This document shows, one piece after another, positions 1,550-55,783 of a DNA stretch of 64,000 nt. Source of the DNA: Spirochaetaceae bacterium (GTDB lineage: Bacteria; Spirochaetota; Spirochaetia; SZUA-6; Bin103); assembly GCA_028821475.1 (NCBI GenBank), contig JAPPGB010000073.1, positions 1 to 64,000 on the forward strand, in the 5' to 3' direction. Position 1 is the first letter of the stretch. Every line of letters starts with the position of its first letter. The notes below the pieces were generated by a model that was not told the origin of the DNA, did no database searches, and was given only the letters and a program-made list of their open reading frames with translations. A program made the position numbers and the translations under genes.

Positions 1550-3130
1550 ATGCCGTGCAACACCAAGTCGACGGTACGTTGCTCCGGCAGGCAGCCGGTC
1601 GCGTGCGGCGCGCTCGTCGCGCTGGCATGCCTTGCGCTGGCGAGTTGCGGCGGAGGTCCGGGCGCGGTTCATCCGGACCTGGTGGTGGAAGATCCCGCGG
1701 TGAGCGTCCCCCGCCCGGCTGCCGCGGCGCGCTTCACGTTCTCGGCCACCGTGCGCAACGCCGGGCGCGGGAGTGCGGCGGCGACCACGCTGCGCGTCTT
1801 CCGTTCCGATGATGGGATCGTCACGACGTTCGACCATGAGGTGGATGCCGTCGCGGTCGCGGGGTTGGCGGCTTCGGCGAGCGGCGTCGCGTCGGTGCCG
1901 GTGACCGCGCCGCCGAGTCCCGGAACGCACTACTACGGCGCATGCGTCGATCCGGTCGCCGGGGAATCCGACACCGCGAACAACTGTTCGGCAACGGTCC
2001 GAGTCGTCGTGCAGGCGCAGAATCTGGAGCCGGCGTCGCCGCAGCCGGACCTGGTGGTGGAATTACCCGCCGTGAGCGACGGCAGCCCGGTTGCCGGGGC
2101 GAGCTTCTCGTTCTCGGCCACCGTGCGCAACGCCGGGGACGGAGACGCGGCGGCGGCGGCGCTGCACGTCTACCGTTCGGACGATGAGACGATCACGCCC
2201 TCCGACGAGCAGGTGGCCGACGCCGCGGTCCCGGAACTGGCGGCCTCGGAGAGCATGGTCGCGTCGGCGAAGCTGAACGCTCCGTCAAGTTCCGGGACGT
2301 ACTACTACGGCGCGTGCGTGCACGCGGTGGCGGAAGAGTCCGACACGACAAACAACTGCTCGGCGCCGGTGCCGGTCACGGTGCAGTCCCCGCGGGTCCC
2401 GGTGTCGAGGCCGCCGCGGCCGGACCTGACTCTTGACGGACCGTGGGTGGACAACACCAAACCCGCGCTCGGGGGGGTTTTCGAGTTGTCTGCGACGGTA
2501 CGCCTCCACGGTACGCCAGAGTTGGTGAAGTCGACGCTGCGCTTCTACCATTCAACGGATGCGACCATCACCCGGTCCGACACGCAGGTGGCCACCCGGG
2601 AGAGGTGGTTGGGCACCCTCACCCAAAACTGGGAAGTGTACAAGCACGTGTGGGTGAAGGCGCCGTCGAGCAAGGGGACATACTACTACGGCGCGTGCGT
2701 GGACGCGGTGGCGGGGGAGTCCGACACGACCAACAACTGCACGGAAGCGGTGACGATCAACGTGTCGGACAACAGCCCGGACCTATGGGTCGGCTCGTGG
2801 GGTATGTGGGGTACGTGGGATGTCGGAGAGCCGGTGACTGTCCGGAAAAAGGTGTACAACGGCGGAAGCCCGTCCGACGCGACGACGCAGCGCCTCCTCC
2901 TGTTGCCGAGTCAGACGAGCAAACCGTCAGCCGGCACGCAGGTGGCTGAAGCCGCCGTGCCGGAACTGGTTGTGACGCAGGCTGAGCCGGCGTCCTCGCT
3001 GCAGATTCTGGTATTTCAGGCACCTGCAACCGCCGGGGTGTACTACTACGTCATGTGCGTGGACGCGGTGCCCCGGGAGTCGGACACGACGAACAACTGT
3101 TCGTCGGCCACCTCAATCGAGTTCCGTTGA
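1550..3130 (+). CDS. Tandem lipoprotein 1 with four CARDB-like repeats
   Basis: 526 residues. The start is the ATG preceded by GGAGGAG. It gives a basic N-terminus, a hydrophobic core and a lipobox LASC with Cys33, so it should be lipidated; CGGG after the Cys carries no Asp retention signal. Four Ig-like repeats follow (about 41-155, 165-280, 289-406, 409-526). Each opens with a PDL-type strand, has FSATVRNAG or an equivalent in the middle, and closes with YYYGACVD...ESDTxNNCS. The two Cys of that ending recur in every repeat and probably form one disulfide per domain. The pattern fits the CARDB (cell adhesion related) family. Repeats 1-2 are nearly identical to those of the paralogues; repeats 3-4 differ. 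The stop overlaps the next start (TGATG). Role inferred: surface or periplasmic binding/adhesion; ligand unknown. Confidence 0.82.
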   Translation: MPCNTKSTVRCSGRQPVACGALVALACLALASCGGGPGAVHPDLVVEDPAVSVPRPAAAARFTFSATVRNAGRGSAAATTLRVFRSDDGIVTTFDHEVDAVAVAGLAASASGVASVPVTAPPSPGTHYYGACVDPVAGESDTANNCSATVRVVVQAQNLEPASPQPDLVVELPAVSDGSPVAGASFSFSATVRNAGDGDAAAAALHVYRSDDETITPSDEQVADAAVPELAASESMVASAKLNAPSSSGTYYYGACVHAVAEESDTTNNCSAPVPVTVQSPRVPVSRPPRPDLTLDGPWVDNTKPALGGVFELSATVRLHGTPELVKSTLRFYHSTDATITRSDTQVATRERWLGTLTQNWEVYKHVWVKAPSSKGTYYYGACVDAVAGESDTTNNCTEAVTINVSDNSPDLWVGSWGMWGTWDVGEPVTVRKKVYNGGSPSDATTQRLLLLPSQTSKPSAGTQVAEAAVPELVVTQAEPASSLQILVFQAPATAGVYYYVMCVDAVPRESDTTNNCSSATSIEFR

Positions 3131-4710
3131 TGCCGCGCAACACCAAGTCGTCCAATCGTTGCTCCGGGAAGCAGCCGGGCGCGTGCGGCGCGCTCGTCGC
3201 GCTGGCATGCCTTGCGCTGGCGAGTTGCGGCGGAGGTCCGGGCGCGGCTCATCCCGACCTGGTGGTGGAAGATGCCGCGGTGAGCGACCCCCGCCCGGCT
3301 GCCGGGGCGGGCTTCACGTTCTCGGCCACCGTGCGCAACGCCGGGCGCGGGAACGCGGCGGCGACGACGCTGCGCGTCTACCGCTCGGATGACGAGGCGA
3401 TCACGCCCTCCGACGAGCAGGTGGGCGCCACCACGGTGGCGGCGCTGGCGGCTTCGGCGAGCCGCGTCGCGACGGCGCAGGTGACCGCGCCGGCGAGTCC
3501 CGGAGTCTCCTACTACGCCGCATGCGCCGATCCGGTGGCGGGAGAGTCCGACACCGCGAACAACTGTTCGGCAACGGTGCGAGTCGTCGTACAGGCGCAG
3601 CATCTGGAGCCGGCGTCGCCGCGGCCGGACCTGGTGGTGGAATTACCCGCCGTGAACGACGGCAGCCCGGTTGCCGGGGCGAGCTTCTCGTTCTCGGCCA
3701 CCGTACGCAACACCGGGGACGGAGACGCGGCGGCGGCGACGCTGCGCGTCTACCGTTCGGACGATGCGGCGATCACGTCCTCCGACGAGCAGGTGGGCGC
3801 CGCCGCGATCCCGGAGCTGGCTGCCTCCGAGAGCAGCCCTGCGTCGGTGGAACTGAGCGCGCCGTCGAGTTCCGGGACGTACTACTACGGCGCGTGCGTG
3901 CATGCGGTGGCGGAAGAATCCGACACGACGAACAACTGCTCGGCGGCGGTTCCGGTCACGGTGCAGGCGGCGCATGTTCCGGCGTCGGGGCCGCCAGGGC
4001 CGGATCTGGTGGTCAAGCGGTTTTGGGTGAACACCGCCAGTCCGCCCATCGGGGGAATATTCGAGTTGTGGGCGGACGTGCGCAACCGCGGCGGTGGGAC
4101 ATCACCATATACGATCCTGCGCTTCTACCGCTCAACCGATGCGACCGTCACGCGGTCCGACATGCAATTGGCCACCGAATGGGTGGCGCGGTTGCGCATC
4201 GACTCGGACGAATATCGCGGGTACGAGTCCATGACCGTGAAGGCGCCGTCGAGCAAGGGGACGTACTACTACGGCGCGTGCGTGGACGCGGTGGCGGGGG
4301 AGTCCGCCACCGCGAACAACTGCTCGGCGGCGGTGAAAGTCGAAGTGTTGCACAACAAACCGGAACTCAGGGTCGGCTCGTGGGATGTGACCGCCCGTTC
4401 TATCGGAGAAACGTTGTCGGTGGCAACGCGAGTGTCGAACTACGGGAGCCCGTCCGACGCGACGACGTTGCGCCTCCTCCTGTTGCCGGACAAGACGAGC
4501 AAGCCGTCCGCCGGCACGCAGGTGGGTGAGGTCGGCGTGCCGGAGCTGGTTGTGACACACAACTGGTCGGCGTCCTCTCTGCGATACGTGGAGTTTCGGG
4601 CACCTGCGACCGCCGGGGTGTACTACTACGTCATGTGCGTGGACGCGGTGCCCCGTGAATCCAACACGGCGAACAACTGTTCGTCGGCCACCGCAATCGA
4701 GTTCCGTTGA
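3130..4710 (+). CDS. Tandem lipoprotein 2 with four CARDB-like repeats
   Basis: 526 residues. The ATG overlaps the stop of gene 1 by one base (TGATG), and no Shine-Dalgarno is visible in the preceding codons, so translation probably depends on re-initiation after gene 1. The signal peptide begins MPRNTKSS and has the same LASC lipobox. The four Ig-like repeats are arranged as in gene 1, each with the terminal Cys pair. Repeat 1 has AAVSDPRPAAGAGF in place of the gene 1 form. Repeat 3 is of the KRFWVNTASP type shared with genes 4 and 9, unlike the GPWVDNTKP type of gene 1. This alternation of repeat-3 types along the array suggests shuffling of the variable half. Likely an outer-membrane-anchored extracytoplasmic protein; function not known. 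Confidence 0.8.
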   Translation: MPRNTKSSNRCSGKQPGACGALVALACLALASCGGGPGAAHPDLVVEDAAVSDPRPAAGAGFTFSATVRNAGRGNAAATTLRVYRSDDEAITPSDEQVGATTVAALAASASRVATAQVTAPASPGVSYYAACADPVAGESDTANNCSATVRVVVQAQHLEPASPRPDLVVELPAVNDGSPVAGASFSFSATVRNTGDGDAAAATLRVYRSDDAAITSSDEQVGAAAIPELAASESSPASVELSAPSSSGTYYYGACVHAVAEESDTTNNCSAAVPVTVQAAHVPASGPPGPDLVVKRFWVNTASPPIGGIFELWADVRNRGGGTSPYTILRFYRSTDATVTRSDMQLATEWVARLRIDSDEYRGYESMTVKAPSSKGTYYYGACVDAVAGESATANNCSAAVKVEVLHNKPELRVGSWDVTARSIGETLSVATRVSNYGSPSDATTLRLLLLPDKTSKPSAGTQVGEVGVPELVVTHNWSASSLRYVEFRAPATAGVYYYVMCVDAVPRESNTANNCSSATAIEFR

Positions 4711-6290
4711 TGCCGTGCAACACCACGTCGACCATTCGTTGCTCCGGGAAGCAGCCGGGCGCGTGCGGCCCGCTCGTCGCGCTGGCATGCTTTGCACTGG
4801 CGAGTTGCGGCGGAGGTCCGGGCGCGGCTCATCCGGACCTGGTGGTGGAAGATCCCGCGGTGAGCGACCCCCGCCCGGCTGCCGGGGCGGGCTTCACGTT
4901 CTCGGCCACCGTGCGCAACGCCGGGCGCGGGAACGCGGCGGCGACGACGCTGCGCGTCTACCGCTCGGATGACGAGGCGATCACGCCCTCCGACGAGCAG
5001 GTGGGCGCCACCACGGTGGCGGGGCTGGCGGCTTCGGCGAGCCGCGTCGCGTCGGTGAAGGTAACGGCGCCGTCGAGTCCCGGAACGCACTACTACGGCG
5101 CGTGCGTCGATCCGGTGGCGGGAGAGTCCGACACCGCGAACACCTGTTCGGCAGCGGTCCGAGTCGACGTGCAGGCGCAGCATCTGGAGCCGGCGTCGCC
5201 GCAGCCGGACCTGGTGGTGGAATTACCCGCCGTGAGCGACGGCAGCCCGGTTGCCGGGGCGAGCTTCTCGTTCTCGGCCACCGTGCGCAACGCCGGGGAC
5301 GGAGACGCGGCGGCGGCGGCGCTGCACGTCTACCGTTCGGACGATGAGACGATCACGCCCTCCGACGAGCAGGTGGGCGCCGCCGCGGTGCCGGCGCTGG
5401 CGGCCTCGAAGAGTAGCCCTGAGTCGGTGGAACTGAGCGCTCCGTCAAGTTCCGGAACGTACTACTACGGCGCGTGCGTGCACGCGGTGGCGGAGGAGTC
5501 CGACACAACGAACAGCTGCTCGGAGGCGGTGCAGGTCACGGTGCAGGCGGCGCAGGTTCCGGCATCGGGGCCGCCACGGCCGGATCTGGTGGTCGACCGG
5601 GTCGGGGTGAGCCCCGGCAGTCCGCCCGTCGGAGGGCTCTTCGACTTGTGGGCGGAGGTGCGCAACCGCGGCGGTGCGCCAGCGCCGTATACGAAGCTGC
5701 GCTTCTACCTTTCAACGGATGCCACCGTCACACGCTCCGACACGGAATTGGCTACCCGTTGGACGTATTTGGGCATCGAATCGCACGACAAAGAAGGGTA
5801 TGACCGCGTATTCGTGAAGGCACCGTCGAGCAAAGGCGTGTACTACTACGGTGCGTGCCTGGACGTGGCGCCGGGGGAGTCCGACACGGCGAACAACTGC
5901 TCGGCGGCGGTGAAGGCCGAGGTGTCGCTCTACATACCGGACCTGATTGTCGGCGCGTGGTCTGCACGGAGTCCCAAACCTGTCGGAGAGTCGTTGTCGC
6001 AGGGCACCGCGGTATGGAACGAAGGGAGCCCGTCCGAGGCGACGAAGTTGCGCCTCCTCCTGTTGCCGGATCGGACGAGCAAACCTTCCGCCGGCACCCG
6101 GGTGGGTGAGGTCGACGTGCCGGCGCTGGTCTTGACACACCACTGGCCGACGGTTTCCGTGTGGCATGTGGAGTTTCGGGCACCCGCGACCGTCGGGTGG
6201 TACTACTACGTCATGTGCGTGGACGCGGTGCGCGGGGAATCCAACACGGCGAACAACTGTTCGACGGTCACCGCAATCGAGTTCCGTTGA
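4710..6290 (+). CDS. Tandem lipoprotein 3 with four CARDB-like repeats
   Basis: 526 residues. The start ATG shares a base with the stop of gene 2. A TTG one codon earlier is possible, but the MPCNT start is conserved among paralogues. The lipobox is LASC, followed by four CARDB-like repeats each with a Cys pair. The end of repeat 1 reads ANTCS where genes 1, 2, 4, 6 and 8 read ANNCS. The same variant appears in genes 5 and 7, marking a shared sequence tract. Bases 4861-5375 are identical to 8371-8885 in gene 5. Repeat 3 (DRVGVSPGSPPVGG) and repeat 4 (IPDLIVGAWSARSPKP) are private to this copy. No own promoter or SD is seen; it is probably the third cistron of the gene 1-4 transcript. Confidence 0.8.
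   Translation: MPCNTTSTIRCSGKQPGACGPLVALACFALASCGGGPGAAHPDLVVEDPAVSDPRPAAGAGFTFSATVRNAGRGNAAATTLRVYRSDDEAITPSDEQVGATTVAGLAASASRVASVKVTAPSSPGTHYYGACVDPVAGESDTANTCSAAVRVDVQAQHLEPASPQPDLVVELPAVSDGSPVAGASFSFSATVRNAGDGDAAAAALHVYRSDDETITPSDEQVGAAAVPALAASKSSPESVELSAPSSSGTYYYGACVHAVAEESDTTNSCSEAVQVTVQAAQVPASGPPRPDLVVDRVGVSPGSPPVGGLFDLWAEVRNRGGAPAPYTKLRFYLSTDATVTRSDTELATRWTYLGIESHDKEGYDRVFVKAPSSKGVYYYGACLDVAPGESDTANNCSAAVKAEVSLYIPDLIVGAWSARSPKPVGESLSQGTAVWNEGSPSEATKLRLLLLPDRTSKPSAGTRVGEVDVPALVLTHHWPTVSVWHVEFRAPATVGWYYYVMCVDAVRGESNTANNCSTVTAIEFR
4861..5375 (+). repeat. 515-bp tract identical to 8371-8885 (genes 3 and 5), partly shared with gene 7
   Basis: Reading the two segments side by side at a constant offset of 3510 bp shows no mismatch from TGAGCGACCC through GACGAGCAGGTGG, after which they diverge. 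The tract covers most of repeat 1, the linker and the first half of repeat 2, including the uncommon ANTCS codons. Gene 7 carries the same sequence over about 12120-12590. Flanking sequence differs at many bases, which points to recent gene conversion or recombination and not to uniform conservation. Confidence 0.85.
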
Positions 6291-7873
6291 TGCCGTGCAA
6301 CACCACGTCGACCATTCGTTGCGCCGGGAAGCAGCCGGTCGCGTGCGGCACGCTCGTCGCGCTGGCATGCCTTGCGCTGGCGAGTTGCGGCGGAGGTCTT
6401 GGCGCCGCTCATCCGGACCTGGTGGTGGAAGATCCCGCGGTGAGCGACCCCCGCCCTGCCGCCGCGGCGAGCTTCTCGTTCTCGGCCACTGTGCGCAACG
6501 CCGGGCGCGGGAATGCGGCGGCTACCACGCTGCGCGTCTACCGTTCGGACGATGCGGCGATCACGCCCTCCGACGAGCAGGTGGGCGCCGCCGCGGTGTC
6601 GGAGCTGGCGGCTTCGGCGAGCGGCGTCGCGTCGGCGCAGGTGACAGCGCCGTCAAGTCCCGGAACGCACTACTACGGCGCATGCGTCGATCCGGTGGCG
6701 GGAGAGTCCGACAGCGCGAACAACTGTTCGGCAACGGTGCGAGTCGTCGTGCAGGCGCAGAATCTGGAGCCGGCGTCGCCGCAGCCGGACCTGGTGGTGG
6801 AATTACCCGCCGTGAGCGACGGCAGCCCGGTTGCCGGGGCGAGCTTCTCGTTCTCGGCCACCGTGCGCAACGCCGGGGACGGAGACGCGGCGGCGGCGGC
6901 GCTGCACGTCTACCGTTCGGACGATGAGACGATCACGCCCTCCGACGAGCAGGTGGCCGACGCCGCGGTCCCGGAACTGGCGGCCTCGGAGAGCATGGTC
7001 GCGTCGGCGAAGCTGAACGCTCCGTCAAGTTCCGGGACGTACTACTACGGCGCGTGCGTGCACGCGGTGGCGGAGGAGTCCGACACGACGAACAACTGCT
7101 CGACCGCGGTGCAGGTCACGGTGCAGGCGGCGCAGGTCCCGGCGTTGGGGCCGCCGCGGCCTGATCTGGTGGTCAAACGGTTTTGGGTGAGCTCCAACAG
7201 TCCGCCCCTCGGGGGAGTTTTCGAGTTGTGGGCGAACGTGCGCAACCGCGGCGGTGCGGAATCACCGTATACGGAACTGCGCTTCTACCGTTCAACCGAT
7301 GCGACCGTCACGCGGTCCGACACCGAAGTGGCCACCGAATGGGTGGCACCGCTGCGCATCGACTCCACAGAATATATCGGGTACGAGTACGCGTACGCGC
7401 AGGCACCGTCGAGCAAAGGGACCTACTACTACGGAACGTGCGTGGACGCGGTGGCGGGGGAGTCCGACACCGCGAACAACTGCTCGGCGGCGGTGAAGGT
7501 CGAAGTGTCGCACAACAGCCCGGAACTGTGGATCGGCGGGTGGACGGTGGCTGGTTCTCGTCCTGCTGGAGCGTCGATCACGGTGGGGATTGCCGTGGAC
7601 AACGGCGGAAGCCCATCCGACGCAACGACGCTGCGCCTCATCCGGTTGCCGGACCGCGAGAGCGAGCCGTCCGCCGGCACGCAGGTGAGTCAGGCCGCCG
7701 TGCCGGGGCTGGTTGTGACCCAGCCCTCGCCCGCGAATTCGGTGCAGACTCTGGTGTTTCAGGCACCTGCTACCGCCGGGGTGTACTACTACGTCGCGTG
7801 CGTGGATGCGGTGCCCCGGGAGTCGGACACGACGAACAACTGTTCGCCGGCCACCTCAATCGAATTCCGTTGA
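6290..7873 (+). CDS. Tandem lipoprotein 4 with four CARDB-like repeats
   Basis: 527 residues, fourth and last of the strictly periodic block. The ATG overlaps the stop of gene 3. The signal peptide ends in the LASC lipobox. Repeat 1 begins PDLVVEDPAVSDPRPAAA and contains SFSFSATVRNAG. Repeat 2 is identical in protein sequence to repeat 2 of genes 1 and 7 over most of its length, and the DNA is identical to gene 1 for 335 bp. Repeat 3 is of the KRFWVSSNSP type. Repeat 4 (WIGGWTVAGSRPAG) is private to this copy. Each repeat ends with the paired Cys motif, although repeat 3 has YYYGTCVD. The stop is followed by a vestigial TGATGCCGTGG that copies the junction of the array but opens only an 18-codon frame. 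Confidence 0.8.
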   Translation: MPCNTTSTIRCAGKQPVACGTLVALACLALASCGGGLGAAHPDLVVEDPAVSDPRPAAAASFSFSATVRNAGRGNAAATTLRVYRSDDAAITPSDEQVGAAAVSELAASASGVASAQVTAPSSPGTHYYGACVDPVAGESDSANNCSATVRVVVQAQNLEPASPQPDLVVELPAVSDGSPVAGASFSFSATVRNAGDGDAAAAALHVYRSDDETITPSDEQVADAAVPELAASESMVASAKLNAPSSSGTYYYGACVHAVAEESDTTNNCSTAVQVTVQAAQVPALGPPRPDLVVKRFWVSSNSPPLGGVFELWANVRNRGGAESPYTELRFYRSTDATVTRSDTEVATEWVAPLRIDSTEYIGYEYAYAQAPSSKGTYYYGTCVDAVAGESDTANNCSAAVKVEVSHNSPELWIGGWTVAGSRPAGASITVGIAVDNGGSPSDATTLRLIRLPDRESEPSAGTQVSQAAVPGLVVTQPSPANSVQTLVFQAPATAGVYYYVACVDAVPRESDTTNNCSPATSIEFR

Positions 7874-8070
7874 TGCCGTGGGAGGCGCGCCCGCGGGGCA
7901 TCGTTGTCTCGCGGACATTGGCACCGTGATGCGTCATCTTCCGTGAGTCACTTGCTCGCGCTCGCCTTGCCCCCGGCCGGTGCAGCTCCTCACGTCTCGC
8001 GTTCTGCCGGGCTCGTCCACTCGTCGCGCGGGGCGACCTCGGCAGCGACGACACGAATTCATCCTGCGAG
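7874..8070 (+). other. Spacer with a vestigial paralogue start after lipoprotein gene 4
   Basis: The last base of gene 4 starts ATGCCGTGGGAGGC, matching the first codons of genes 8 and 9 (MPW...), but the frame stops after 18 codons. This looks like the stub of a lost fifth unit. The motif CCCCGGCCGGTGCAG near 7971 also occurs near 1338 upstream of gene 1, so this spacer is a duplicated 5' flank. No other gene is visible. Confidence 0.5.
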
Positions 8071-8219
8071 ATGCACTTTTTCCCCGTTTCATGATTGAAA
8101 GTCATGGCAAGTTCATTGAATACCTTGTACGATAAAGAAACGTAGTGGCACCTCGCCGGCGGCGACGACGGCGGCGGGGCCGCCGGTGGTACGGTCGCGC
8201 CGAACCGGAGGAGTGGACG
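8071..8219 (+). promoter_or_regulatory. Repeated leader, copy 2, upstream of lipoprotein gene 5
   Basis: Second copy of the leader. The -35-like TGGCAA (8105-8110) and -10-like TACGAT (8128-8133) are 17 bp apart. The GC hairpin region is a CGG-rich variant (8155-8180). The final segment, through GGAGGAG and the ATG at 8220, matches copy 1 exactly in the last ~40 bases. In this copy the bases after the -10 read AAAG instead of GAAG. Confidence 0.45.
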
Positions 8220-9800
8220 ATGCCGTGCAACACCAAGTCGACGGTACGTTGCTCCGGCAGGCAGCCGGTCGCGTGCGGCGCGCTCGTCGCGCTGGCATGC
8301 CTTGCGCTGGCGAGTTGCGGCGGAGGTCCGGGCGCGGCTCATCCCGACCTGGTGGTGGAAGATGCCGCGGTGAGCGACCCCCGCCCGGCTGCCGGGGCGG
8401 GCTTCACGTTCTCGGCCACCGTGCGCAACGCCGGGCGCGGGAACGCGGCGGCGACGACGCTGCGCGTCTACCGCTCGGATGACGAGGCGATCACGCCCTC
8501 CGACGAGCAGGTGGGCGCCACCACGGTGGCGGGGCTGGCGGCTTCGGCGAGCCGCGTCGCGTCGGTGAAGGTAACGGCGCCGTCGAGTCCCGGAACGCAC
8601 TACTACGGCGCGTGCGTCGATCCGGTGGCGGGAGAGTCCGACACCGCGAACACCTGTTCGGCAGCGGTCCGAGTCGACGTGCAGGCGCAGCATCTGGAGC
8701 CGGCGTCGCCGCAGCCGGACCTGGTGGTGGAATTACCCGCCGTGAGCGACGGCAGCCCGGTTGCCGGGGCGAGCTTCTCGTTCTCGGCCACCGTGCGCAA
8801 CGCCGGGGACGGAGACGCGGCGGCGGCGGCGCTGCACGTCTACCGTTCGGACGATGAGACGATCACGCCCTCCGACGAGCAGGTGGCCAACGCCGCGGTG
8901 CCGGAACTGGCGGCCTCGAAAAGCAGACCTGAATCGGTGGAACTGAGCGCTCCGTCAAGTTCCGGGACGTTCTACTACGGCGCGTGCGTGCACGCGGTGG
9001 TGGAAGAGTCCGACACAACGAACAACTGCTCGGAGGCGGTGCAGGTCACGGTGCACACGCCACAGGTCACGGCGTCGGCGGCGCCGCGGCCGGACCTGGT
9101 TGTTCTCGGAGCTTGGGTGGACAACGCCAATCCCGCCATCGGTGGGGTTTTCGAGTTGGGGGCGGAGGTGCACAACCGCGCTACAAAAATGGAGCTGGAG
9201 ATGACGCTGCGCTTCTACCGCTCGACGGATGCGACAATCGAGCGGTCCGACACGCATTTGGGCGACCGCGGGTGGTGGATGGGCACCAACCGGTACAACC
9301 AGGAAGTGTACGACTACGTGACCTTGCAGGCACCGTCGAGCAAAGGGACATACTACTACGGCGCGTGCGTGGACGCGTTAGTGGTCGAGTCCGACACGAC
9401 CAACAACTGCTCGGCGGCGGCGACGATCAAGGTGTCGCACAACAAGCCGGACCTGAGTGTCGGCTCGTGGAGTGTGTTGCTTCCGCGGGCTGTCGGAACG
9501 TCGTTGACTCTCAAAAAGAGGGTGTACAACACCGGGGGCCCGTCCGAAGCGACGACGCTGCGCCTCATCCAGTTGCCGGACCGGGAGAGCAAACCGTCCG
9601 ATGGCACGCAGGTGGCTGAGGCCGCCGTGCCGAAGCTGGTTGTAACACGGGCCGCGGCGGCGTACGCCACGCAGACTCTGGTATTCACGACCCCTGCGAC
9701 CGCCGGGTGGTACTACTACGTCATGTGCGTGGACGCGGTACGCGGGGAATCCGACACGACGAACAACTGTTCCGGGGTCTCCCCAATCGAGTTTCATTGA
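8220..9800 (+). CDS. Tandem lipoprotein 5 with four CARDB-like repeats
   Basis: 526 residues. The start is the ATG after GGAGGAG in leader copy 2. The signal peptide (MPCNTKSTVRCSGRQPVACG) is identical to that of genes 1 and 6. The lipobox is LASC. Repeats 1 and 2 are a copy of gene 3 through 515 identical bases, then change to a KSRPESVEL ending. Repeat 3 (LGAWVDNANPAIGG) belongs with the gene 1 type. Repeat 4 is SVGSWSVLLPRAVGTSL. One Cys pair ends each repeat. The repeat 3 ending is ALVVESDTTNNCS, a variation of the usual AVAGESDT. The downstream spacer (9801-9941) contains no gene; a short frame just after the stop (ILLAAAIVIGAKVR) could be a fragment of another protein but is too short to assign. 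Confidence 0.8.
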   Translation: MPCNTKSTVRCSGRQPVACGALVALACLALASCGGGPGAAHPDLVVEDAAVSDPRPAAGAGFTFSATVRNAGRGNAAATTLRVYRSDDEAITPSDEQVGATTVAGLAASASRVASVKVTAPSSPGTHYYGACVDPVAGESDTANTCSAAVRVDVQAQHLEPASPQPDLVVELPAVSDGSPVAGASFSFSATVRNAGDGDAAAAALHVYRSDDETITPSDEQVANAAVPELAASKSRPESVELSAPSSSGTFYYGACVHAVVEESDTTNNCSEAVQVTVHTPQVTASAAPRPDLVVLGAWVDNANPAIGGVFELGAEVHNRATKMELEMTLRFYRSTDATIERSDTHLGDRGWWMGTNRYNQEVYDYVTLQAPSSKGTYYYGACVDALVVESDTTNNCSAAATIKVSHNKPDLSVGSWSVLLPRAVGTSLTLKKRVYNTGGPSEATTLRLIQLPDRESKPSDGTQVAEAAVPKLVVTRAAAAYATQTLVFTTPATAGWYYYVMCVDAVRGESDTTNNCSGVSPIEFH

Positions 9801-9941
9801 TCCTGCTGGCTGCCGCCATCGTCATCGGCGCGAAGGTGCGCTGACCGCCGCGGGACCGGCGGAGCCCGGCGGCGGATCGTTCGGCGGGTAACGGCATCTC
9901 GTGGTCGGGACACGCGTGAAGTCACCTATTCCTCTTTCGAG

Positions 9942-10092
9942 GTGCAATACGTACCTGTTTCATTGATCGATAGTCATGGAAAGTTCATTGAATACCTTGT
10001 ACGATGAAGAAACGTAGCGGGCACCCGCCGCCGTCGTTCGCCGGCGGCGGGGCCGCCGGTGGTACGGTCGCGCCGAACCGGAGGAGTGGACG
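9942..10092 (+). promoter_or_regulatory. Repeated leader, copy 3, upstream of lipoprotein gene 6, with inverted hairpin segment
   Basis: Third copy. TGGAAA (9977-9982), a 17-bp spacer and TACGAT (10000-10005) match the other leaders. The hairpin segment 10029-10049 is the exact reverse complement of 1486-1506 in copy 1, whereas both flanks are in the normal orientation. The SD GGAGGAG and start context are unchanged. Confidence 0.45.
10029..10049 (-). repeat. 21-bp hairpin core inverted relative to leader copy 1
   Basis: In copy 1 (1486-1506) the core reads CGCCGCCGGCGAACGACGGCG. Here the same 21 bases are present as the reverse complement between unchanged flanks. The core is bordered by inverted CCGCCG/CGGCGG arms, so flipping can be explained by template switching at a hairpin. 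Copy 5 (gene 8) has the copy 1 orientation. Confidence 0.7.
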
Positions 10093-11685
10093 ATGCCGTG
10101 CAACACCAAGTCGACGGTACGTTGCTCCGGCAGGCAGCCGGTCGCGTGCGGCGCGCTCGTCGCGCTGGCATGCCTTGCGCTGGCGAGTTGCGGCGGAGGT
10201 CCGGGCGCGGCTCATCCCGACCTGGTGGTGGAAGATGCCGCGGTGAGCGACCCCCGCCCGGCTGCCGGGGCGGGCTTCACGTTCTCGGCCACCGTGCGCA
10301 ACGCCGGGCGCGGGAACGCGGCGGCGACGACGCTGCGCGTCTACCGTTCGGATGACGCGACGGTCACCCCCTCCAACGAGCAGGTGGGCGCCGCCACGGT
10401 GGCGGAACTGGCGGCTTCGGCGAGCCGCGCCGCATCGGTCACGGTGACCGCGCCGTCGGGTCCCGGAGTCTCCTACTACCGCGCGTGCGCCGATCCGGTG
10501 GCGGGAGAGTCCGACCCCGCGAACAACTGTTCGGGGGCGGTCCGAGTCGTCGTGCAGGCGCAGAATCTGGAGCCGGCGTCGCCGCAGCCGGACCTGGTGG
10601 TCGAATCACCCGCCGTGAGCGACGACCGCCCGGTTGCCGGGGCGAGCTTCTCGTTCTCGGCCACGGTGCGCAACGCCGGGGACGGAGACGCGGCGGCGGC
10701 GACGCTGCGCGTCTACCGTTCGGACGATGAGACGATCACGCCCTCCGACGAGCAGGCGGGCGCCGCCGCGGTGCCGGCGCTGGCGGCCTCGAAGAGCAGC
10801 CCTGAGGCGGTGAAGCTGCGCGCTCCGTCGAGCTCCGGGACGCACTATTACGGCGCGTGCGTACACGCGGTGGCGGAAGAGTCCGACACGACAAACAACT
10901 GCTCGGCGGCGGTTACGGTCACGGTGCAGGCGCCGGCGCCGGCAGCGCCGCGGCCGCCGGCAGCTCCGCGGCCGCCGGCGCCGGATCTGGATGTCAACCT
11001 GCTTCGCGTGTTCCCCCGCAGTCCGCCCATCGGAGGGCTTTTCGAGTTGACGGCGAAGGTGCGCAACCGTGGGGCTACGACAACGGCGCGGACGACGCTG
11101 CGCTTCTACCTGTCAACGGATGCAACTATCACGCAGTCGGACACGAAGTTGTACGACTGGCCGATGGGGCGATTCCCCACCGACTCGAGCCTGGTAGCGT
11201 ACAAAGACCTGAGGGCGCCCTCGAGCAAGGGCACATACTACTATGGCGCGTGCGTGGACGCGGTGGCAGGGGAGTCCGCCACGGCGAACAACTGCTCGGC
11301 GGCGATGAGGCTCGATGTTTCACACGACGAACCTGACCTGCATGTCAGCAGGTGGGGTCACGACCGTTCTCGGCCTTCCGGAAGGCGGTTGTTGTTCGTA
11401 GTCGCAGTGTGGAACGACGGTAGCCCGTCGGACGCGACGACGTTGCGCATGCTCCTGTTGCCGGATCCGACGAGCAAACCGTCCGCCGGCACGCAGGTAG
11501 GTGAGATCGCCGTGCCCGAACTGGTAGTGACCCGGACCGTGCCGGCGACCTCCGTACGGGGTGTGGAGTTCCAGGCACCTGCGACCCCCGGAGTGTACCA
11601 CTACGTCATGTGCGTGGACGCGGTGCCCCGGGAGTCGGACACGAAGAACAACTGCTCGGCGACCGTCGCGGTCGAATACCACTGA
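10093..11685 (+). CDS. Tandem lipoprotein 6 with four CARDB-like repeats
   Basis: 530 residues with its own leader and SD. It has the same signal peptide as genes 1 and 5, and the LASC lipobox. Repeat 1 differs from the common form after the RSDD motif (ATVTPSNEQVG) and ends RACADPVAGESDPANNCSG. Repeat 2 starts PDLVVESPAVSDDRP. The linker between repeats 2 and 3 is unusually Pro/Ala-rich ([19 protein letters not shown]) and probably an extended hinge. Repeat 3 (NLLRVFPRSPPIGG) and repeat 4 (VSRWGHDRSRPSG) are private. The C-terminus is AVEYH, not IEFR, so the stop/start junction found in genes 1-4 is absent, consistent with this gene standing alone. Extracytoplasmic location follows from the lipobox; function is inferred only from the fold. 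Confidence 0.8.
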   Translation: MPCNTKSTVRCSGRQPVACGALVALACLALASCGGGPGAAHPDLVVEDAAVSDPRPAAGAGFTFSATVRNAGRGNAAATTLRVYRSDDATVTPSNEQVGAATVAELAASASRAASVTVTAPSGPGVSYYRACADPVAGESDPANNCSGAVRVVVQAQNLEPASPQPDLVVESPAVSDDRPVAGASFSFSATVRNAGDGDAAAATLRVYRSDDETITPSDEQAGAAAVPALAASKSSPEAVKLRAPSSSGTHYYGACVHAVAEESDTTNNCSAAVTVTVQAPAPAAPRPPAAPRPPAPDLDVNLLRVFPRSPPIGGLFELTAKVRNRGATTTARTTLRFYLSTDATITQSDTKLYDWPMGRFPTDSSLVAYKDLRAPSSKGTYYYGACVDAVAGESATANNCSAAMRLDVSHDEPDLHVSRWGHDRSRPSGRRLLFVVAVWNDGSPSDATTLRMLLLPDPTSKPSAGTQVGEIAVPELVVTRTVPATSVRGVEFQAPATPGVYHYVMCVDAVPRESDTKNNCSATVAVEYH

Positions 11686-11769
11686 TTCCATTGATATTGA
11701 TGGAGACCGGGCGCGTAGGTTACTTGCGGCAATCTCCCGCCATTGGCCGACATTATTTCCTCTTACAAG

Positions 11770-11920
11770 ATGCAGTTTATCCCTGTTTCATGATTGATCG
11801 TCATGGAAAGTTTATTGCATACCTTGTACGATGAAGGAAGCATAGTGGCACCTCGCCGTTGGCGCACCACGGCGGCGAGGCCGCCGGTGGTACGGTCGCG
11901 CCGAACCGGAGGAGTGGACA
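11770..11920 (+). promoter_or_regulatory. Repeated leader, copy 4, upstream of lipoprotein gene 7
   Basis: TGGAAA (11804-11809), 17 bp, TACGAT (11827-11832). The hairpin region (about 11855-11882) is more diverged and the stem is interrupted. The end of the leader keeps the SD GGAGGAG, with TGGACAATG in place of TGGACGATG. The 11686-11769 part of the spacer has no recognisable feature. Confidence 0.43.
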
Positions 11921-13513
11921 ATGCCGTGGAACACCGAGTCGGCTGCACGTTGCTCCCGGAAGCCGCCGGTCGCATGCAACGCACTCGTCGCGCTGGCATG
12001 CCTTGCACTGGCGAGTTGCGGCGGAGGTCCGGGGCCGGCCCATCCGGACCTGGTGGTGGAGGATCCCGCGGCGAGCGACCCCCGCCCGGCCGCCGGGACG
12101 GGCTTCACGTTCTCGGCCACCGTGCGCAACGCCGGGCGCGGGAACGCGGCGGCGACGACGCTGCGCGTCTACCGCTCGGATGACGAGGCGATCACGCCCT
12201 CCGACGAGCAGGTGGGCGCCACCACGGTGGCGGGGCTGGCGGCTTCGGCGAGCCGCGTCGCGTCGGTGAAGGTAACGGCGCCGTCGAGTCCCGGAACGCA
12301 CTACTACGGCGCGTGCGTCGATCCGGTGGCGGGAGAGTCCGACACCGCGAACACCTGTTCGGCAGCGGTCCGAGTCGACGTGCAGGCGCAGCATCTGGAG
12401 CCGGCGTCGCCGCAGCCGGACCTGGTGGTGGAATTACCCGCCGTGAGCGACGGCAGCCCGGTTGCCGGGGCGAGCTTCTCGTTCTCGGCCACCGTGCGCA
12501 ACGCCGGGGACGGAGACGCGGCGGCGGCGGCGCTGCACGTCTACCGTTCGGACGATGAGACGATCACGCCCTCCGACGAGCAGGTGGCCGACGCCGCGGT
12601 CCCGGAACTGGCGGCCTCGGAGAGCATGGTCGCGTCGGCGAAGCTGAACGCTCCGTCAAGTTCCGGGACGTACTACTACGGCGCGTGCGTGCACGCGGTG
12701 GCGGAAGAGTCCGACACGGCGAACAACTGCTCGGCTCCGGTGCAGGTCGCGGTGCAGGTTCCGGTGTCGGGGCCACGGCCGGATCTGATAGTCAACCCGC
12801 TTCGGGTGAGCGTCGGCAAGCCGGCCATCGGGGGCCGACTCGAGTTCGAGACCAAGGTGGTCAACCGCGGCAGGGCGACGGCGGGGCCGACGGCGCTGCG
12901 CTTCTACCGTTCAACGGATGCGACCGTGACGCGGTCGGACACGGAGTTCGCCACCGTGTGGTTGTCGCCGTTGTCGGGCGTGGGGATGGACTTGGGCTTG
13001 AGAACCGTGCGCGCGTGGGTGACGGCGCCGTCGAGCAAGGCGGTATTGTACTTCGGCGCCTGCGTGGACACCGTGGCGGGAGAGTCCGCAACGACGAACA
13101 ACTGCTCGGCGGCGTTGAAGGTCGAAGTGTTGCGCCACATACCGGACCTCTTCGTCACCCAGTTGACCGTGCCGGTCGTGCGACCTACCGGAGCGAAATT
13201 GTCGTTCGGTACGCGTGTGTGGAACAGCGGGAGCCCGTCCAAGGCGACCACGCTGCGACTCATCCTGTTGCCGGATTCGACGAGCGCACCGTCCGCCGGT
13301 ACGCGGGTGGGTGCGGTCGCCGTGCCGGAGCTGGTCGCGACGAAGGATTCGGGTGGGCACGCCTTCAGGTGGGTGGAGTTCAAGGCACCTGCGACCGCCG
13401 GACGGTACTACTACGTCATGTGCGTGGACGCGGTGCCCGGGGAATCCAACACGACAAACAACTGTTCGCTGGAGAACACCCCGGTCGATTTCACCGACAC
13501 CGATGGAGATTAG
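11921..13513 (+). CDS. Tandem lipoprotein 7 with four CARDB-like repeats (mosaic copy)
   Basis: 530 residues. Signal peptide MPWNTESAARCSRKPP, lipobox LASC. A mosaic: the second half of repeat 1 matches genes 3 and 5 (including ANTCS), then repeat 2 from ADAAVPELAASESMV onward matches genes 1 and 4. Repeats 3 and 4 are the most divergent of the array (NPLRVSVGKPAIGG; FVTQLTVPVVRPTG), and repeat 3 has YFGACVDT instead of YYYGACVDA. The tail is longer (ENTPVDFTDTDGD) and acidic. The Cys pairs are all kept. The divergent 3' half with a homogenised 5' half is the clearest case of the conserved/variable split of this family. Confidence 0.8.
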   Translation: MPWNTESAARCSRKPPVACNALVALACLALASCGGGPGPAHPDLVVEDPAASDPRPAAGTGFTFSATVRNAGRGNAAATTLRVYRSDDEAITPSDEQVGATTVAGLAASASRVASVKVTAPSSPGTHYYGACVDPVAGESDTANTCSAAVRVDVQAQHLEPASPQPDLVVELPAVSDGSPVAGASFSFSATVRNAGDGDAAAAALHVYRSDDETITPSDEQVADAAVPELAASESMVASAKLNAPSSSGTYYYGACVHAVAEESDTANNCSAPVQVAVQVPVSGPRPDLIVNPLRVSVGKPAIGGRLEFETKVVNRGRATAGPTALRFYRSTDATVTRSDTEFATVWLSPLSGVGMDLGLRTVRAWVTAPSSKAVLYFGACVDTVAGESATTNNCSAALKVEVLRHIPDLFVTQLTVPVVRPTGAKLSFGTRVWNSGSPSKATTLRLILLPDSTSAPSAGTRVGAVAVPELVATKDSGGHAFRWVEFKAPATAGRYYYVMCVDAVPGESNTTNNCSLENTPVDFTDTDGD

Positions 13514-13575
13514 GCGGCTCGTCCACCCGTCGCTCGGGACGACTCCGGGGAGAAGACGCGAATCTCCCTTACAAG

Positions 13576-13724
13576 ATGCAATTCCTGCCTGTTTAATGAT
13601 CGATAGTTCATGGAAAGTTTATCGAATACGCTTTACGATGAAGAACGTAGTGGCACCTCGCCGCTGGCGAACGACGGCGGGGGGCCGCCGGCGGTACGGT
13701 CGCGCCGAACCGGAGGAGTGGACA
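13576..13724 (+). promoter_or_regulatory. Repeated leader, copy 5, upstream of lipoprotein gene 8
   Basis: TGGAAA (13611-13616), 17 bp, TACGAT (13634-13639). The hairpin core has the same orientation as copy 1 (GGCGAACGACGG). SD GGAGGAG, then TGGACAATG. The 13514-13575 spacer shares a GGCTCGTCCAC motif with the spacer before gene 5. Confidence 0.45.
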
Positions 13725-15281
13725 ATGCCATGGAACACCAAGTCGGCTGTACGTTGCGCCGGGAAGCAGCCGGTCGCGTGCGGCGCGCTCGTCGCGCTGG
13801 CATGCATGGCACTGGCGAGTTGCGGCGGAGGTCCGGGCGCGGCCCATCCGGACCTGGTGGTGGAGAATCCCGCGGTGAGCGACCCCCGCCCGGCTGCCGG
13901 GGCGGGCTTCACGTTCTCGGCCACCGTGCGCAACGCCGGGCGCGGGAACGCGGCGGCGACCACGCTGCGTGTCTACCGCTCGGATAACGAGACGATCACG
14001 CCCTCCGACGAGCAGGTGGGCGCCGCCGCGGTGGCGGGGCTGGCGGCTTCGGAGAGCATGGTCGCGTCGGTAACGGTAATGGCGCCGTCGAGGCCCGGAA
14101 CCTCGTACTACGGCGCATGCGTCGATCCGGTCGCCGGAGAATCCGACACCGCGAACAACTGTTCCGCAACGGTGCGAGTCACCGTGCAGGTGCCGGATGC
14201 GGTGCCGAGGGCGGATCTGGTGGTTGAGTCTCCCGACGTGAGGGCCGCCACGGAGGCCGCCGGAGCGAGATACACGTTCTCGGCCACGGTGCGCAACGCC
14301 GGGGACGGACACGCGGCGGCGACGACGCTGCGCGTCTACCGTTCGGACGATGAGACGATCACGCCCTCCGACGAGCAGGTGGGCGCCGACGCGGTCCCGG
14401 AGCTGGCGGCGTCGGAAAGCAGGGCCGCGTCGGTGGAGCTGAGCGCTCCGTCGAGTACCGGGACGTACTACTACGGCGCGTGCGTGCACGCGGTGGCGGG
14501 AGAGTCCGACACGACGAACAACTGCTCGGCTCCGGTGCCGGTCACGGTGCAGACGCCGCAGGTCGCGGCATCGGGGCCGCCGGGGCCGGACCTGGTGGCC
14601 TCCGTTTGGCTTGTCGGCACCCGCAGTCCGGCCATCGGGGGGATTATCGACTTGTCCGGGAAGGTGCTCAACCGCGGGCGCAGGACCACGGCGTTGACGA
14701 CGCTGCGCTTCTACCGTTCAACGGATGCGACCATCACGCGGTCCGACACGCAAGTGGCCACCCGTTCGGTGAGGCGGTTGGGCACCGGGTTGAACCAGTA
14801 TCTCCTGTTCCTGAAGCTGCCGTCGAAAAAGGGGGTGTATTACTACGGCGCGTGCGTGGACGCGGTGGCGGGCGAGTCGGTCACGACGAACAACTGCTCG
14901 GCGGCGGTGAAGGTCAATGCGTCGCAGAGCATACCGGACCTGTGGGTCGGCTCGTGGAGCGTGGGTCCCCGTCATCTCCGCACGTGGACGTCGGTAGGAG
15001 TAAAGGTGTTCAACAGCGGGAGCCCGTCCGGGGCGACGACGCTGCGCCTCCTCCTGTTGCCGAGTCAGACGAGCAAACCGTCCGCCGGCACGCAGGTGGG
15101 TGAGGTCGCCGTGCCGGAGCTGGTTGTGACACAGGACGAGTCGGCGTCCTCCCTGCAGTCCGTGAATTTCCAGCCACCTGCGACCCCCGGGGTGTACTAC
15201 TACGTCATGTGCGTGGACACGGTGACCGGGGAATCGGACACGACGAACAACTGTACGCAAGCCTCAATCGAGTTCCTTTGA
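13725..15281 (+). CDS. Tandem lipoprotein 8 with four CARDB-like repeats
   Basis: 518 residues, from the ATG behind GGAGGAG. Signal peptide MPWNTKSAVRCAGKQP, lipobox LASC. The linker between repeats 1 and 2 is shorter than in the other copies (VQVPDAVPRADLVV), and repeat 2 is a distinct version (ESPDVRAATEAAGARYTFSA), so this copy has escaped the homogenisation seen in repeat 2 elsewhere. Repeat 3 is SVWLVGTRSPAIGG; repeat 4 is VGSWSVGPRHLRTW. All Cys pairs are present. The stop is used as TGATG for gene 9, so genes 8 and 9 form a two-cistron unit under leader copy 5. Confidence 0.8.
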   Translation: MPWNTKSAVRCAGKQPVACGALVALACMALASCGGGPGAAHPDLVVENPAVSDPRPAAGAGFTFSATVRNAGRGNAAATTLRVYRSDNETITPSDEQVGAAAVAGLAASESMVASVTVMAPSRPGTSYYGACVDPVAGESDTANNCSATVRVTVQVPDAVPRADLVVESPDVRAATEAAGARYTFSATVRNAGDGHAAATTLRVYRSDDETITPSDEQVGADAVPELAASESRAASVELSAPSSTGTYYYGACVHAVAGESDTTNNCSAPVPVTVQTPQVAASGPPGPDLVASVWLVGTRSPAIGGIIDLSGKVLNRGRRTTALTTLRFYRSTDATITRSDTQVATRSVRRLGTGLNQYLLFLKLPSKKGVYYYGACVDAVAGESVTTNNCSAAVKVNASQSIPDLWVGSWSVGPRHLRTWTSVGVKVFNSGSPSGATTLRLLLLPSQTSKPSAGTQVGEVAVPELVVTQDESASSLQSVNFQPPATPGVYYYVMCVDTVTGESDTTNNCTQASIEFL

Positions 15282-16561
15282 TGCCGTGGGATACCAGGTC
15301 GTCCATTCGCTGCTCCGTCATGCAGCCGGTCGTGTGCGGCGCGCTCGCCGCGCTGGCATGCCTTGCGCTGGCGAGTTGCGGCGGAGGTCCGGGCGCGGTT
15401 CTTCCGGACCCGGCGGTGGAGGCTCCCGCGGTGAGCGACCCCCGCCCGGTGGTGGATACCGAGGCAGCATCGCCGCGGCCGGATCTCGTGGTGGGAGACC
15501 TGGCGGTGAGCGACGACGGCCCGACCGCCGGCGAGAGCTTCACGTTCTCGGCCACGGTGCGCAACGCAGGGCGCGGAGAGGCGGCAGCGACGACGATCGT
15601 AGTCTACCGGTCGAAAGACGACACCATCACGGCCTCCGACGAGCAGGTGGGCGCCGCCGCGGTGCCGGAGCTGGCGGCCTCGGAGCGCAGCCCTGCGTCG
15701 GTGGAGCTGAGCGCTCCGTCGAGTTCCGGGACGTACTACTACGGCGCGTGCGTGCACGCGGTGGCGGAAGAGTCCGACACGGCAAACAACTGCGCGGGGG
15801 AGGTTCCGGTCACGGTGCAGGGGCCACCGGTCCCGGTATCCGGGCCATTGCCGGATCTGGTGGTCAACCGGTTTTGGGTGAACACCGCCAGTCCTGCCAT
15901 CGGGGGAGTTTTCCGGTTGCGGGCGGACGTGCGCAACCGCGGTGCGGCGACACCTTTTTTTACGAAGCTGCGCTTCTACCGTTCAACCGATGCCGCTGTC
16001 ACGCGGTCCGACACGGAAGTTGCCACCGGTACGGTGCCGCCGTTGCGCATCGACTCGGACAAGTATGACGGGTACGTCTTCGTGACCGTGAAGGCGCCGT
16101 CGAACAAGGGGACCTACTACTACGGCGCGTGCGTGGACGCGGTGGCGGGGGAGTCCGCTACAACGAACAACTGCTCGGCGGCGGTGGAGGTCGACGTGTC
16201 GCGCAACAGCCCGGACCTGGGGGTCGCCGCTTGGAGTGTGAGCGAGCGTGCCATCGGAACGTCGTTGTCGGTGGGCTTGAAGGTGTACAACATGGGGAGC
16301 CCGTCCGACGCGACGACGTTGCGGATCCTCCTGCTGCCGGACAAGGCGAGCAATCCGTCCGCCGGCACGCAAGTGGGTGAGGTCGACGTGCCGGAGCTGG
16401 TTGTGACAGGCAACTCTCTGGCGGGCTCCCTGCGGTACGTGGAGTTTCGGGCACCCGCGACCGCCGGGCGGTACTACTACGTCGGGTGCGTGGACCCGGT
16501 GCCCCGCGAATCCGACACGGCGAACAACTGTTCGACGGTCACCGGAATCAGTTTCCATTGA
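15281..16561 (+). CDS. Tandem lipoprotein 9, shortened to three CARDB-like repeats
   Basis: 426 residues, about 100 fewer than its paralogues. The ATG overlaps the stop of gene 8. Signal peptide MPWDTRSSIRCSVMQP, lipobox LASC. After the lipobox the first residues of repeat 1 (EAPAVSDPRPV) run directly into the linker DTEAASPRPDLVV that normally precedes repeat 2, so one Ig-like repeat has been deleted in frame. The remaining repeats correspond to 2, 3 (NRFWVNTASPAIGG, the gene 2/4 type) and 4 of the full-length copies, with Cys pairs kept (the first reads NNCAGE). It ends the array, 25 bp from the convergent msrQ. No SD is seen, so it should be translated by re-initiation after gene 8. Confidence 0.8.
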   Translation: MPWDTRSSIRCSVMQPVVCGALAALACLALASCGGGPGAVLPDPAVEAPAVSDPRPVVDTEAASPRPDLVVGDLAVSDDGPTAGESFTFSATVRNAGRGEAAATTIVVYRSKDDTITASDEQVGAAAVPELAASERSPASVELSAPSSSGTYYYGACVHAVAEESDTANNCAGEVPVTVQGPPVPVSGPLPDLVVNRFWVNTASPAIGGVFRLRADVRNRGAATPFFTKLRFYRSTDAAVTRSDTEVATGTVPPLRIDSDKYDGYVFVTVKAPSNKGTYYYGACVDAVAGESATTNNCSAAVEVDVSRNSPDLGVAAWSVSERAIGTSLSVGLKVYNMGSPSDATTLRILLLPDKASNPSAGTQVGEVDVPELVVTGNSLAGSLRYVEFRAPATAGRYYYVGCVDPVPRESDTANNCSTVTGISFH

Positions 16562-16586: not shown

Positions 16587-17222
16587 CTACTTGCGGCCGG
16601 CGGAGCGCTTCAGGGCGGGGGCCACGACGCGGTAGGCGAGCAGCACGCCGCCGGCGATGATGTAGAACCAGAGCTGAAAGCTGATCTCCTTGATCTGCAG
16701 CAGGTAGTGGACCACGCCCAGGATCAGCGCCGCGTAACCGAGCCGGTGCAGGGTTCGCCAGCGCTTGCCGAGGGCGCGGATCCAGCCGTTGGTGGAGGTG
16801 AGCGCCAGCGGTATCAGCAGCAGGAACCCGGCGAAGCCCACCACCACGTAGATCGACTGCGACAGGTCGGGGATGATGTACTGAAACTCGAAGTTGAAAT
16901 CGAGATACAGGTACACCAGCAAGTGCACACACACGTAGTAGAACGCGGCCAGGCCCATGGGGCGGCGGTAGGTGATGAGCCAGTTCCAGCCGGTCAGCTC
17001 GCGCAGCGGGGTGATGGCGAGGGTGACCAGGAGCAGGCGGATGCCCCAGTTGCCGGTGTCCAGGGTGAACGCCTCGATGGCGTTGCCGCCGAACTGGTCG
17101 CCCAGGTAGCGCAGCAGGGCGATGGCCAGCGGCACCATGGCCAGCGGCAGGACGACCAGCTTGGCGCGCTTGGCCACCTGCATCGGGTTGCGCCGTTTCG
17201 GTTTCGCCTTCGCCTCCGCCAT
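16587..17222 (-). CDS. msrQ: MsrQ, heme-binding membrane subunit of the periplasmic methionine sulfoxide reductase
   Basis: 211 residues; last gene of the mo(e)a-msr operon, 25 bp after msrP. Several hydrophobic spans are visible (LVVLPLAMVPLAIALL, LLLVTLAITPL, AFYYVCVHLLVYLYLD, VVVGFAGFLLLIPLAL, YAALILGVVHYLLQI). Conserved features of the MsrQ/YedZ family are TYRRPMGLAAFYYVCVH, with a heme-ligand type His, and RTLHRLGYAALILGVVHY, with two more His. In E. coli this b-type heme protein passes electrons from the respiratory chain or flavin reductase to MsrP across the inner membrane. The length matches the family (~200 residues). The start gives a Lys/Arg-rich cytoplasmic N-terminus. Confidence 0.9.
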   Translation of the reverse strand: MAEAKAKPKRRNPMQVAKRAKLVVLPLAMVPLAIALLRYLGDQFGGNAIEAFTLDTGNWGIRLLLVTLAITPLRELTGWNWLITYRRPMGLAAFYYVCVHLLVYLYLDFNFEFQYIIPDLSQSIYVVVGFAGFLLLIPLALTSTNGWIRALGKRWRTLHRLGYAALILGVVHYLLQIKEISFQLWFYIIAGGVLLAYRVVAPALKRSAGRK

Positions 17223-41844: not shown

Positions 41845-41883
41845 CTACCGGTCGCACGGGCCGCACGCGTCGCGTGCTTGCAC

Positions 41884-43077: not shown

Positions 43078-43083
43078 GCGAAT

Positions 43084-54334: not shown

Positions 54335-55241
54335 GGCGTCGCCCTGTAAGCTAACGCCTTGCGCCTTCTGACGCAACGGTCAATTCAGCGCGACGCACTG
54401 TCGATTTACAGTGCGCCCGGTCCGCCCGATCGAACCCCATCTCAACTTAGCCCATCCAGCCGGCGTCGACGAGAGGACGTTCCGATGCGCGCATACGGAG
54501 AGTGCGACCTCGGTCAGATACCGCCGCCAGCGCAGCGCCGGAGGAGACCCCGACGGCCACAACAAGCCACGCCTCACTCCCTGTTGTGAACCACCTGACC
54601 GTGTGAAGACCCTGCCCCGCTCGCCGCTACTTGCTTCGCTTCGCGCCCGTCCCGGCCCGCATGGACACTCTGAGACATACCACCGAACGCATAAGTCGAG
54701 CAGTGCCGCAACGGCACCCCGAGCATTCCAACGATGCCGACTATACGCCCGCCATTCTCCGTTCGCGCACCGATTACGACATATGTCCGTAGAGTGCAGA
54801 AAGACTCCCTTGAAACCGCTCAGCACTAAGCCACCAATCCGGTGAACCGTCAACTAGCGCCGGAGACTCTCGATCGGTGGGAGTGCAAGCCCGACATAGT
54901 CAATGATCAGCTACCTCGGACATCGACCGCATGTCCCCGTGACCCCTAACAATACGCACCCGAAATAGTATAGCTTCTAGTTGGTCTCGGAAAATACGTT
55001 CCTTCAGTCTGTCCAAAGATTTATTCGGAGAACCGGAATGGAACGCTGCGCTCAGGACGAAGCAAGAACTGTGTTTCGCTGTAGTCTACTTGGTCATCCC
55101 ATCGCAAAGGATCGACTCCTCATCGCGAATAGAGAACATCATAATGGTACCGCAAATCATGCGTCACAATTTACCTGATCTCGACGACATCGCACAATCT
55201 GTCCCCAACACGAGTTCCACATAGGACGTTCGTTAACACTC
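54335..55241. other. About 900 bp without a supportable gene; transition from high to low GC
   Basis: Both strands have open frames of up to ~157 codons around 54380-54853, but they overlap each other on opposite strands, have no SD and no recognisable family. From about 54850 the GC content falls, marking the left border of the HEPN/DUF262 island. No att-like direct repeat, tRNA or integrase was found. A decayed gene cannot be excluded. Confidence 0.5.
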
Positions 55242-55775: not shown

Positions 55776-55783
55776 CAGTAATC

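Follow-up and report, generated by a model that had tools for sequence, protein, structure and literature searches.

Borrelia vlsE and gonococcal pilin each combine one expression site with silent donors, and gene conversion alters the variable part. Ig or FN3 scaffolds elsewhere serve as diversified binding surfaces. PFam54 of Borrelia is a head-to-tail array of 6-11 lipoprotein genes on lp54 with lineage-specific gains and losses, and its member CspA binds host factor H (PMC11389397). We analysed a 64,000-nucleotide stretch of DNA (the window) from an uncultured member of the Spirochaetaceae, related to a sponge symbiont; it contains a comparable array. Judging from the sequences, we hold with moderate confidence that the genes of the array simultaneously encode a repertoire of lipoproteins, predicted to lie at the surface, that pair a constant stalk with a diversified binding head.

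Organization of the array and fold of its repeats

Nine lipoprotein ORFs (g1-g9) lie head-to-tail on the plus strand and span exactly positions 1550-16561 of the window, where the original prediction had placed nine adjacent paralogues. They carry 35 CARDB repeats in total. The expected four repeats (R1-R4) were present in each of g1-g8 but not in g9, which has three; its leader and ~15 residues of R1 are kept and fused in frame to R2, the rest of R1 being deleted. The first four genes are g1 (1550-3130, 526 aa; R3 of type GPWVDN at 2420-2770, R4 at 2777-3127), g2 (3130-4710, 526 aa; R3 of type KRFWV at 4000-4353, R4 at 4360-4707), g3 (4710-6290, 526 aa; R3 at 5580-5930) and g4 (6290-7873, 527 aa; R3 of type KRFWV at 7160-7513). 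They are followed by g5 (8220-9800, 526 aa; R3 of type GAWVDN), with a constant half at 8220-9089 and a variable half at 9090-9797; g6 (10093-11685, 530 aa), whose R3 (10981-11325) is preceded by a longer Pro/Ala linker; g7 (11921-13513, 530 aa; R3 at 12779-13135); g8 (13725-15281, 518 aa; R3 at 14586-14927); and g9 (15281-16561, 426 aa; R3 of type KRFWV at 15851-16204).

One-base overlaps (TGATG) at g1/g2, g2/g3, g3/g4 and g8/g9 point to five likely transcription units: g1-4, g5, g6, g7 and g8-9. The same upstream segment opens each of the five. A 26-bp 5′ element with a Shine-Dalgarno sequence, GGTACGGTCGCGCCGAACCGGAGGAG, occurs in five exact plus-strand copies, one before each unit, at 1518-1543 (g1), 8188-8213 (g5), 10061-10086 (g6), 11889-11914 (g7) and 13693-13718 (g8-g9). 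With as many as three mismatches allowed, no further copy was found in the 5.7-Mb genome. RNA structure in the element was considered and rejected, folding being no better than that of shuffled sequences. A scan for sigma-70 promoters and terminators gave counts at chance level.

The leader and lipobox were identified by eye. All nine proteins have an N-terminal signal in which a basic and a hydrophobic stretch precede LASC-GGG, in accordance with the lipobox pattern [LVI][ASTVI][GAS]C; the lipobox proposed to be common to all nine is retained in every copy. These features predict lipid anchoring and a cell-surface location. With intact starts and lipoboxes, the nine genes look expressible.

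Both checks proposed for the domain assignment, a profile comparison and structure modelling, identified the repeats as CARDB. The PF07705 (CARDB) profile matched all six proteins scanned, with E values of 5e-24 to 4e-35 and scores of 84.9-120.9 bits, above the curated cut-off of 22.7 bits in each case. Beyond CARDB, the Pfam scan of these six proteins returned DUF11 and weak other matches, and none to Borrelia lipoprotein families. Every repeat (35/35) has exactly two Cys, spaced C-x13-C, which bears out the prediction of a conserved Cys pair in each CARDB-like repeat; in the repeat model the pair is Cys93 and Cys107, a putative disulphide. An AF2 model of repeat 3, built with 109 related repeats as input (pLDDT 92, pTM 0.85), resembled, among solved structures, that of the CARDB domain in PF1109 best (3idu/2kl6; Z 12.9, rmsd 1.7 Å, 102 residues aligned); model and match together show the seven-stranded CARDB beta-sandwich. 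The whole-chain model is a string of CARDB domains whose mutual orientation is uncertain (pTM 0.37). Because of this uncertainty, a whole-chain Foldseek search was uninformative and was set aside; it returned only generic multi-Ig proteins, e.g. complement. A profile search of PDB sequences gave no matches.

Divergence, exchange and selection along the genes

Pooled over all gene pairs, pN/pS was.093/.137 in the leader,.090/.137 in R1 and.106/.161 in R2, versus.271/.310 in R3 and.243/.286 in R4. Nonsynonymous and synonymous divergence each approximately doubled from R1-R2 to R3-R4, in agreement with the predicted split into constant repeats 1-2 and variable repeats 3-4. The description of R1-R2 as almost unchanged was accurate for g1-g7, but not for R2 of g8 and g9, which is 80-86% identical to that of the others. 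R3 nucleotide identity was 81-86% within the type formed by g2, g4, g9 and, more distantly, g3; it was 77% for g1/g5, and otherwise ~62-78%. These two types are therefore real, although the strict alternation along the array that had been proposed was not found. The relatedness of genes was not tied to array position. As a scale for these values, msrP, msrQ and moaC showed pS of.25-.28 relative to the sister species; the distal halves thus appear to date from roughly the time when the species separated, and the proximal halves to be younger or homogenised.

Shared runs among g1-g8 were assessed by permutation. Seventeen gene-conversion-like tracts were significant, all ending before alignment column 266 and within the region from leader to R2; examples are a tract common to R1 of g3, g5 and g7 and another common to R2 of g1, g4 and g7. 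R3-R4 contained no significant shared tract; two runs there were borderline, both in the conserved motif of strand F. Between-gene distances in the leader, R1 or R2 were uncorrelated with those in R3 or R4, or with array position, whereas R3 and R4 distances were partly correlated with each other (Mantel r 0.44, p 0.045). The uncorrelated genealogies indicate that the genes are mosaics of modules. The clearest case is g7, in which R1 resembles g3/g5, R2 resembles g1/g4, and R3 is unlike that of the other genes.

Codon models were fitted with our own implementation using F3x4 frequencies. M2a improved on M1a by 2ΔlnL 36.0 in R3, with 11% of sites at omega 5.3, and by 59.7 in R4, with 21% of sites at omega 4.4, values that recombination within R3/R4 could inflate. 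In R1 and R2 the gain was zero and there were no positively selected sites. R3-R4 evolve faster than R1-R2, and positively selected codons were found in them alone. Sixteen R3-like data sets simulated under M1a gave 2ΔlnL of at most 0.75, and with the R4 tree imposed on R3 the gain was still 38. Candidate sites (g5 numbering) were 298, 310, 327, 352, 361, 362 and 368 in R3 and twenty positions in R4, including several in 413-427, 432-434, 479, 482 and 486. Most selected sites are on strands A, B and D-E of the CARDB sandwich, often at alternate residues; this every-second-residue pattern fits a single exposed face, which the selected residues would form. The C-F-G part with the Cys pair (motif YYYGAC...NNC) is conserved.

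For strands A/AB/B/DE/E versus the rest, omega was 0.87/0.30 in R3 and 1.16/0.34 in R4, compared with 0.43/0.28 in R2 and 0.36/0.35 in R1. This set of elements was picked after the variability had been seen; the M2a test is free of such a choice. A Nei-Gojobori dN/dS of 1.40 for the same elements of R3 was superseded by the codon model with F3x4 (0.87), the earlier ratio having probably been inflated by GC-rich codon bias.

The main rival explanation is neutral birth-and-death of tandem genes, in which exchange is frequent where copies are alike (the 5′ half) and stops after drift, while exposed residues of the distal repeats are under relaxed constraint. It explains part of the contrast. Synonymous divergence also doubles in R3-R4, which indicates that much of the contrast reflects homogenisation and not selection, and the averaged omega of the varied face was not different from 1 (LRT 1.2 for R3, 1.3 for R4), so that relaxed constraint accounts for part of the pattern. 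However, a purely neutral process does not readily yield the M2a gains with site omegas of 4-5, far above the R3 null simulations; nor does it fit the lack of such a site class on the same strands of R1-R2, or the recurrence of the pattern at a second locus (below). We therefore regard it as a serious but rather doubtful account, and retain the reading in which selection has diversified the distal repeats.

Distribution of the array and of the repeat family

The array is known from one genome only, a MAG, whose contig starts 1.5 kb upstream of it. Just upstream of the array, window positions 1-1245 encode the C-terminal beta-domain (PF03797) of an autotransporter, truncated where the contig begins; it shares 45% identity with part of an open frame of 7398 codons on another contig of the genome (C79). 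The right-hand neighbour is a msrQ-like gene (Ferric_reduct; 16587-17222, minus strand), the first gene of a flank colinear with the sister species and hence the array edge. That species, Spirochaetaceae bacterium bin103 of the same genus, is a symbiont bin from the sponge Aplysina aerophoba (PMC5649159). The msrQ-msrP-moa region is colinear with that of bin103, at 87% identity, as far as the edge of the array. In bin103, clpB directly adjoins msrQ at this site and the array is absent, so that relatives do not share a fixed nine-gene set. clpB also adjoins msrP in another genus of the family (G003), so the order with clpB is the older one. No clpB orthologue was found in the array genome, where it is either lost or in an assembly gap. 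The array was present in 1 of 26 genomes searched in the order.

Elsewhere in its genome, bin103 has two relatives, one with four repeats and the other with two. It also encodes a predicted lipoprotein (L101:7637-9985) in which two CARDB repeats are joined to glycine-rich RTX-like repeats. The array genome has a further relative at C96 and, on contig C171 (L102:7264-11218), two more family genes with the same kind of leader. The amino acid identity of this pair is 83% in R1, 77% in R2, 49% in R3 and 60% in R4, the same constant-to-variable gradient as in the array. The left flank of the pair is 90% identical in bin103, and colinearity ends just before the two genes. An assembly artefact is unlikely, because colinearity with bin103 extends right to the array and the same kind of leader recurs at a second locus, although on its left side the array is bounded by a contig end.

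Two other regions of the window have lower GC. An island of ~0.50 GC at 54380-56977 contains a gene for a GmrSD_N protein that matches PADLOC NsnA (1.8e-58) and PD-T4-2_A; together with two unknown neighbours, it is a possible defence gene. At 41878-46302, a DUF4143 AAA ATPase (PADLOC PDC-S01, 6e-46) adjoins a 1072-aa ORF on the opposite strand, in lower-GC DNA, that had no match in Pfam, NCBIfam or PADLOC.

Two motif patterns, run against 84,980 species genomes, picked out 166 relatives; 73 loci (L024-L096) were among the matches listed. At least 44 of these 73 bear project codes traceable to sponge studies: 31 RHO/COS/CAR/IRC/APA codes match hosts of PMC8163846, PMC5649159 lists bin103 and bin129, and PMC9531527 names jk18x, with p16x probably from the same study. 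The remaining listed loci (SB06xx, OX/OY/CATOS, CO36388, PCPOR and one other) are probably sponge-linked in a similar way. The listed loci are distributed over about eight phyla (Spirochaetes, Gemmatimonadota, Latescibacterota, Proteobacteria, Chloroflexi, Acidobacteria, Actinobacteria and Poribacteria), and 243 of 249 extracted repeats have C-x13-C. None of the 73 was a comparable tandem lipoprotein array. The sponge genomics literature examined contained no mention of the CARDB repeat family.

Head diversity might alternatively be driven by recognition among bacteria (kin recognition, biofilm matrix, or decoys for phage receptor-binding proteins) and not by host ligands. The same sequence evidence is compatible with this explanation, and the domain model also matches the biofilm scaffold RbmA (Z ~10), as many Ig-like domains do. 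However, no relatives were found on viral contigs, and the occurrence of the repeat family mostly in sponge-associated genomes of many phyla, among the matches listed, favours a host or holobiont context. Otherwise nothing specific speaks against recognition among bacteria, which we consider unlikely as the main driver.

Proposed function and comparison with known systems

Under the reading we favour, a multi-ligand surface repertoire, each protein is a chain of three or four CARDB (Ig-like) domains that would be tethered to a membrane via the lipidated Cys of LASC-GGG. Repeats 1-2 would form a uniform stalk and repeats 3-4 a distal head, whose strands A, B and D-E bear the residues that vary between genes. 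Multiplication of the genes would have taken place within this species; recombination, by gene conversion or by unequal exchange, would keep the leader, R1 and R2 alike and at the same time reshuffle which head sits on which stalk, and selection would favour differing head surfaces. The most likely job of such a set, if its members are expressed together, would be binding several ligands at once without switching. Presuming a sponge host, candidate ligands are glycans or proteins found in the sponge matrix or on cells nearby. An adhesion role is plausible, though CARDB repeats need not be adhesive.

The original prediction had likened the array to antigenic-variation systems. In a switching system, one or few genes would be expressed at once and the others would donate variable heads; the split into a constant 5′ and a variable 3′ half, the shared tracts, 5′ homology that would permit head replacement by recombination, and the partial co-inheritance of R3 and R4 are in keeping with it, but it is very unlikely, since starts and lipoboxes are intact in 9/9 genes, five separate 5′ elements are present and each of the remaining four genes overlaps its predecessor by 1 bp, no silent cassettes were found, no short-unit tandem tract for phase variation occurs at gene starts, no local inverted repeats of an invertible promoter flank the upstream segments, and significant exchange tracts are confined to the constant half.

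Within the favoured repertoire reading, we tentatively suggest a more specific possibility, that the array is a multi-specific recognition set of a sponge symbiont, in which concerted evolution would maintain an exchangeable stalk and the CARDB A-B-D-E face would serve as the diversified binding surface, in a family that spans phyla and is found chiefly in sponge symbionts. Such a set would bear on mutual recognition between sponges and the dense communities of symbionts from many phyla that they harbour. The array offers a concrete, expressible candidate for specificity with residues named for testing; it raises the possibility that CARDB repeats can be diversified as a binding scaffold, and draws attention to a repeat family enriched in sponge symbionts.

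The repeats share with the CARDB family (PF07705; PF1109 of Pyrococcus furiosus, 3idu/2kl6) the fold, the profile family and occurrence as repeats in extracellular proteins. They differ from it in the invariant C-x13-C pair of each repeat and in being encoded by an array of lipoprotein genes whose proximal half is homogenised and whose distal half is positively selected. The multi-CARDB proteins of sponge-symbiont MAGs have the same repeat with C-x13-C; however, they are mostly single large multidomain ORFs of up to ~3000 aa. vlsE and gonococcal pilin resemble the array in having constant and variable segments and gene-conversion-like exchange, but here all copies look expressible and the conversion-like tracts are in the constant part. 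In behaviour, the array comes closest to that of Borrelia PFam54. In both, many diverged variants lie side by side; the present genes are likewise head-to-tail paralogues with lineage-specific copy number (nine here, none in bin103), and diversifying selection acts, in R3 and R4 only, on parts whose strand pattern suggests exposure. The protein families are unrelated, and what distinguishes the present array from PFam54 is its domain-wise split into a homogenised putative stalk and a diversified putative head.
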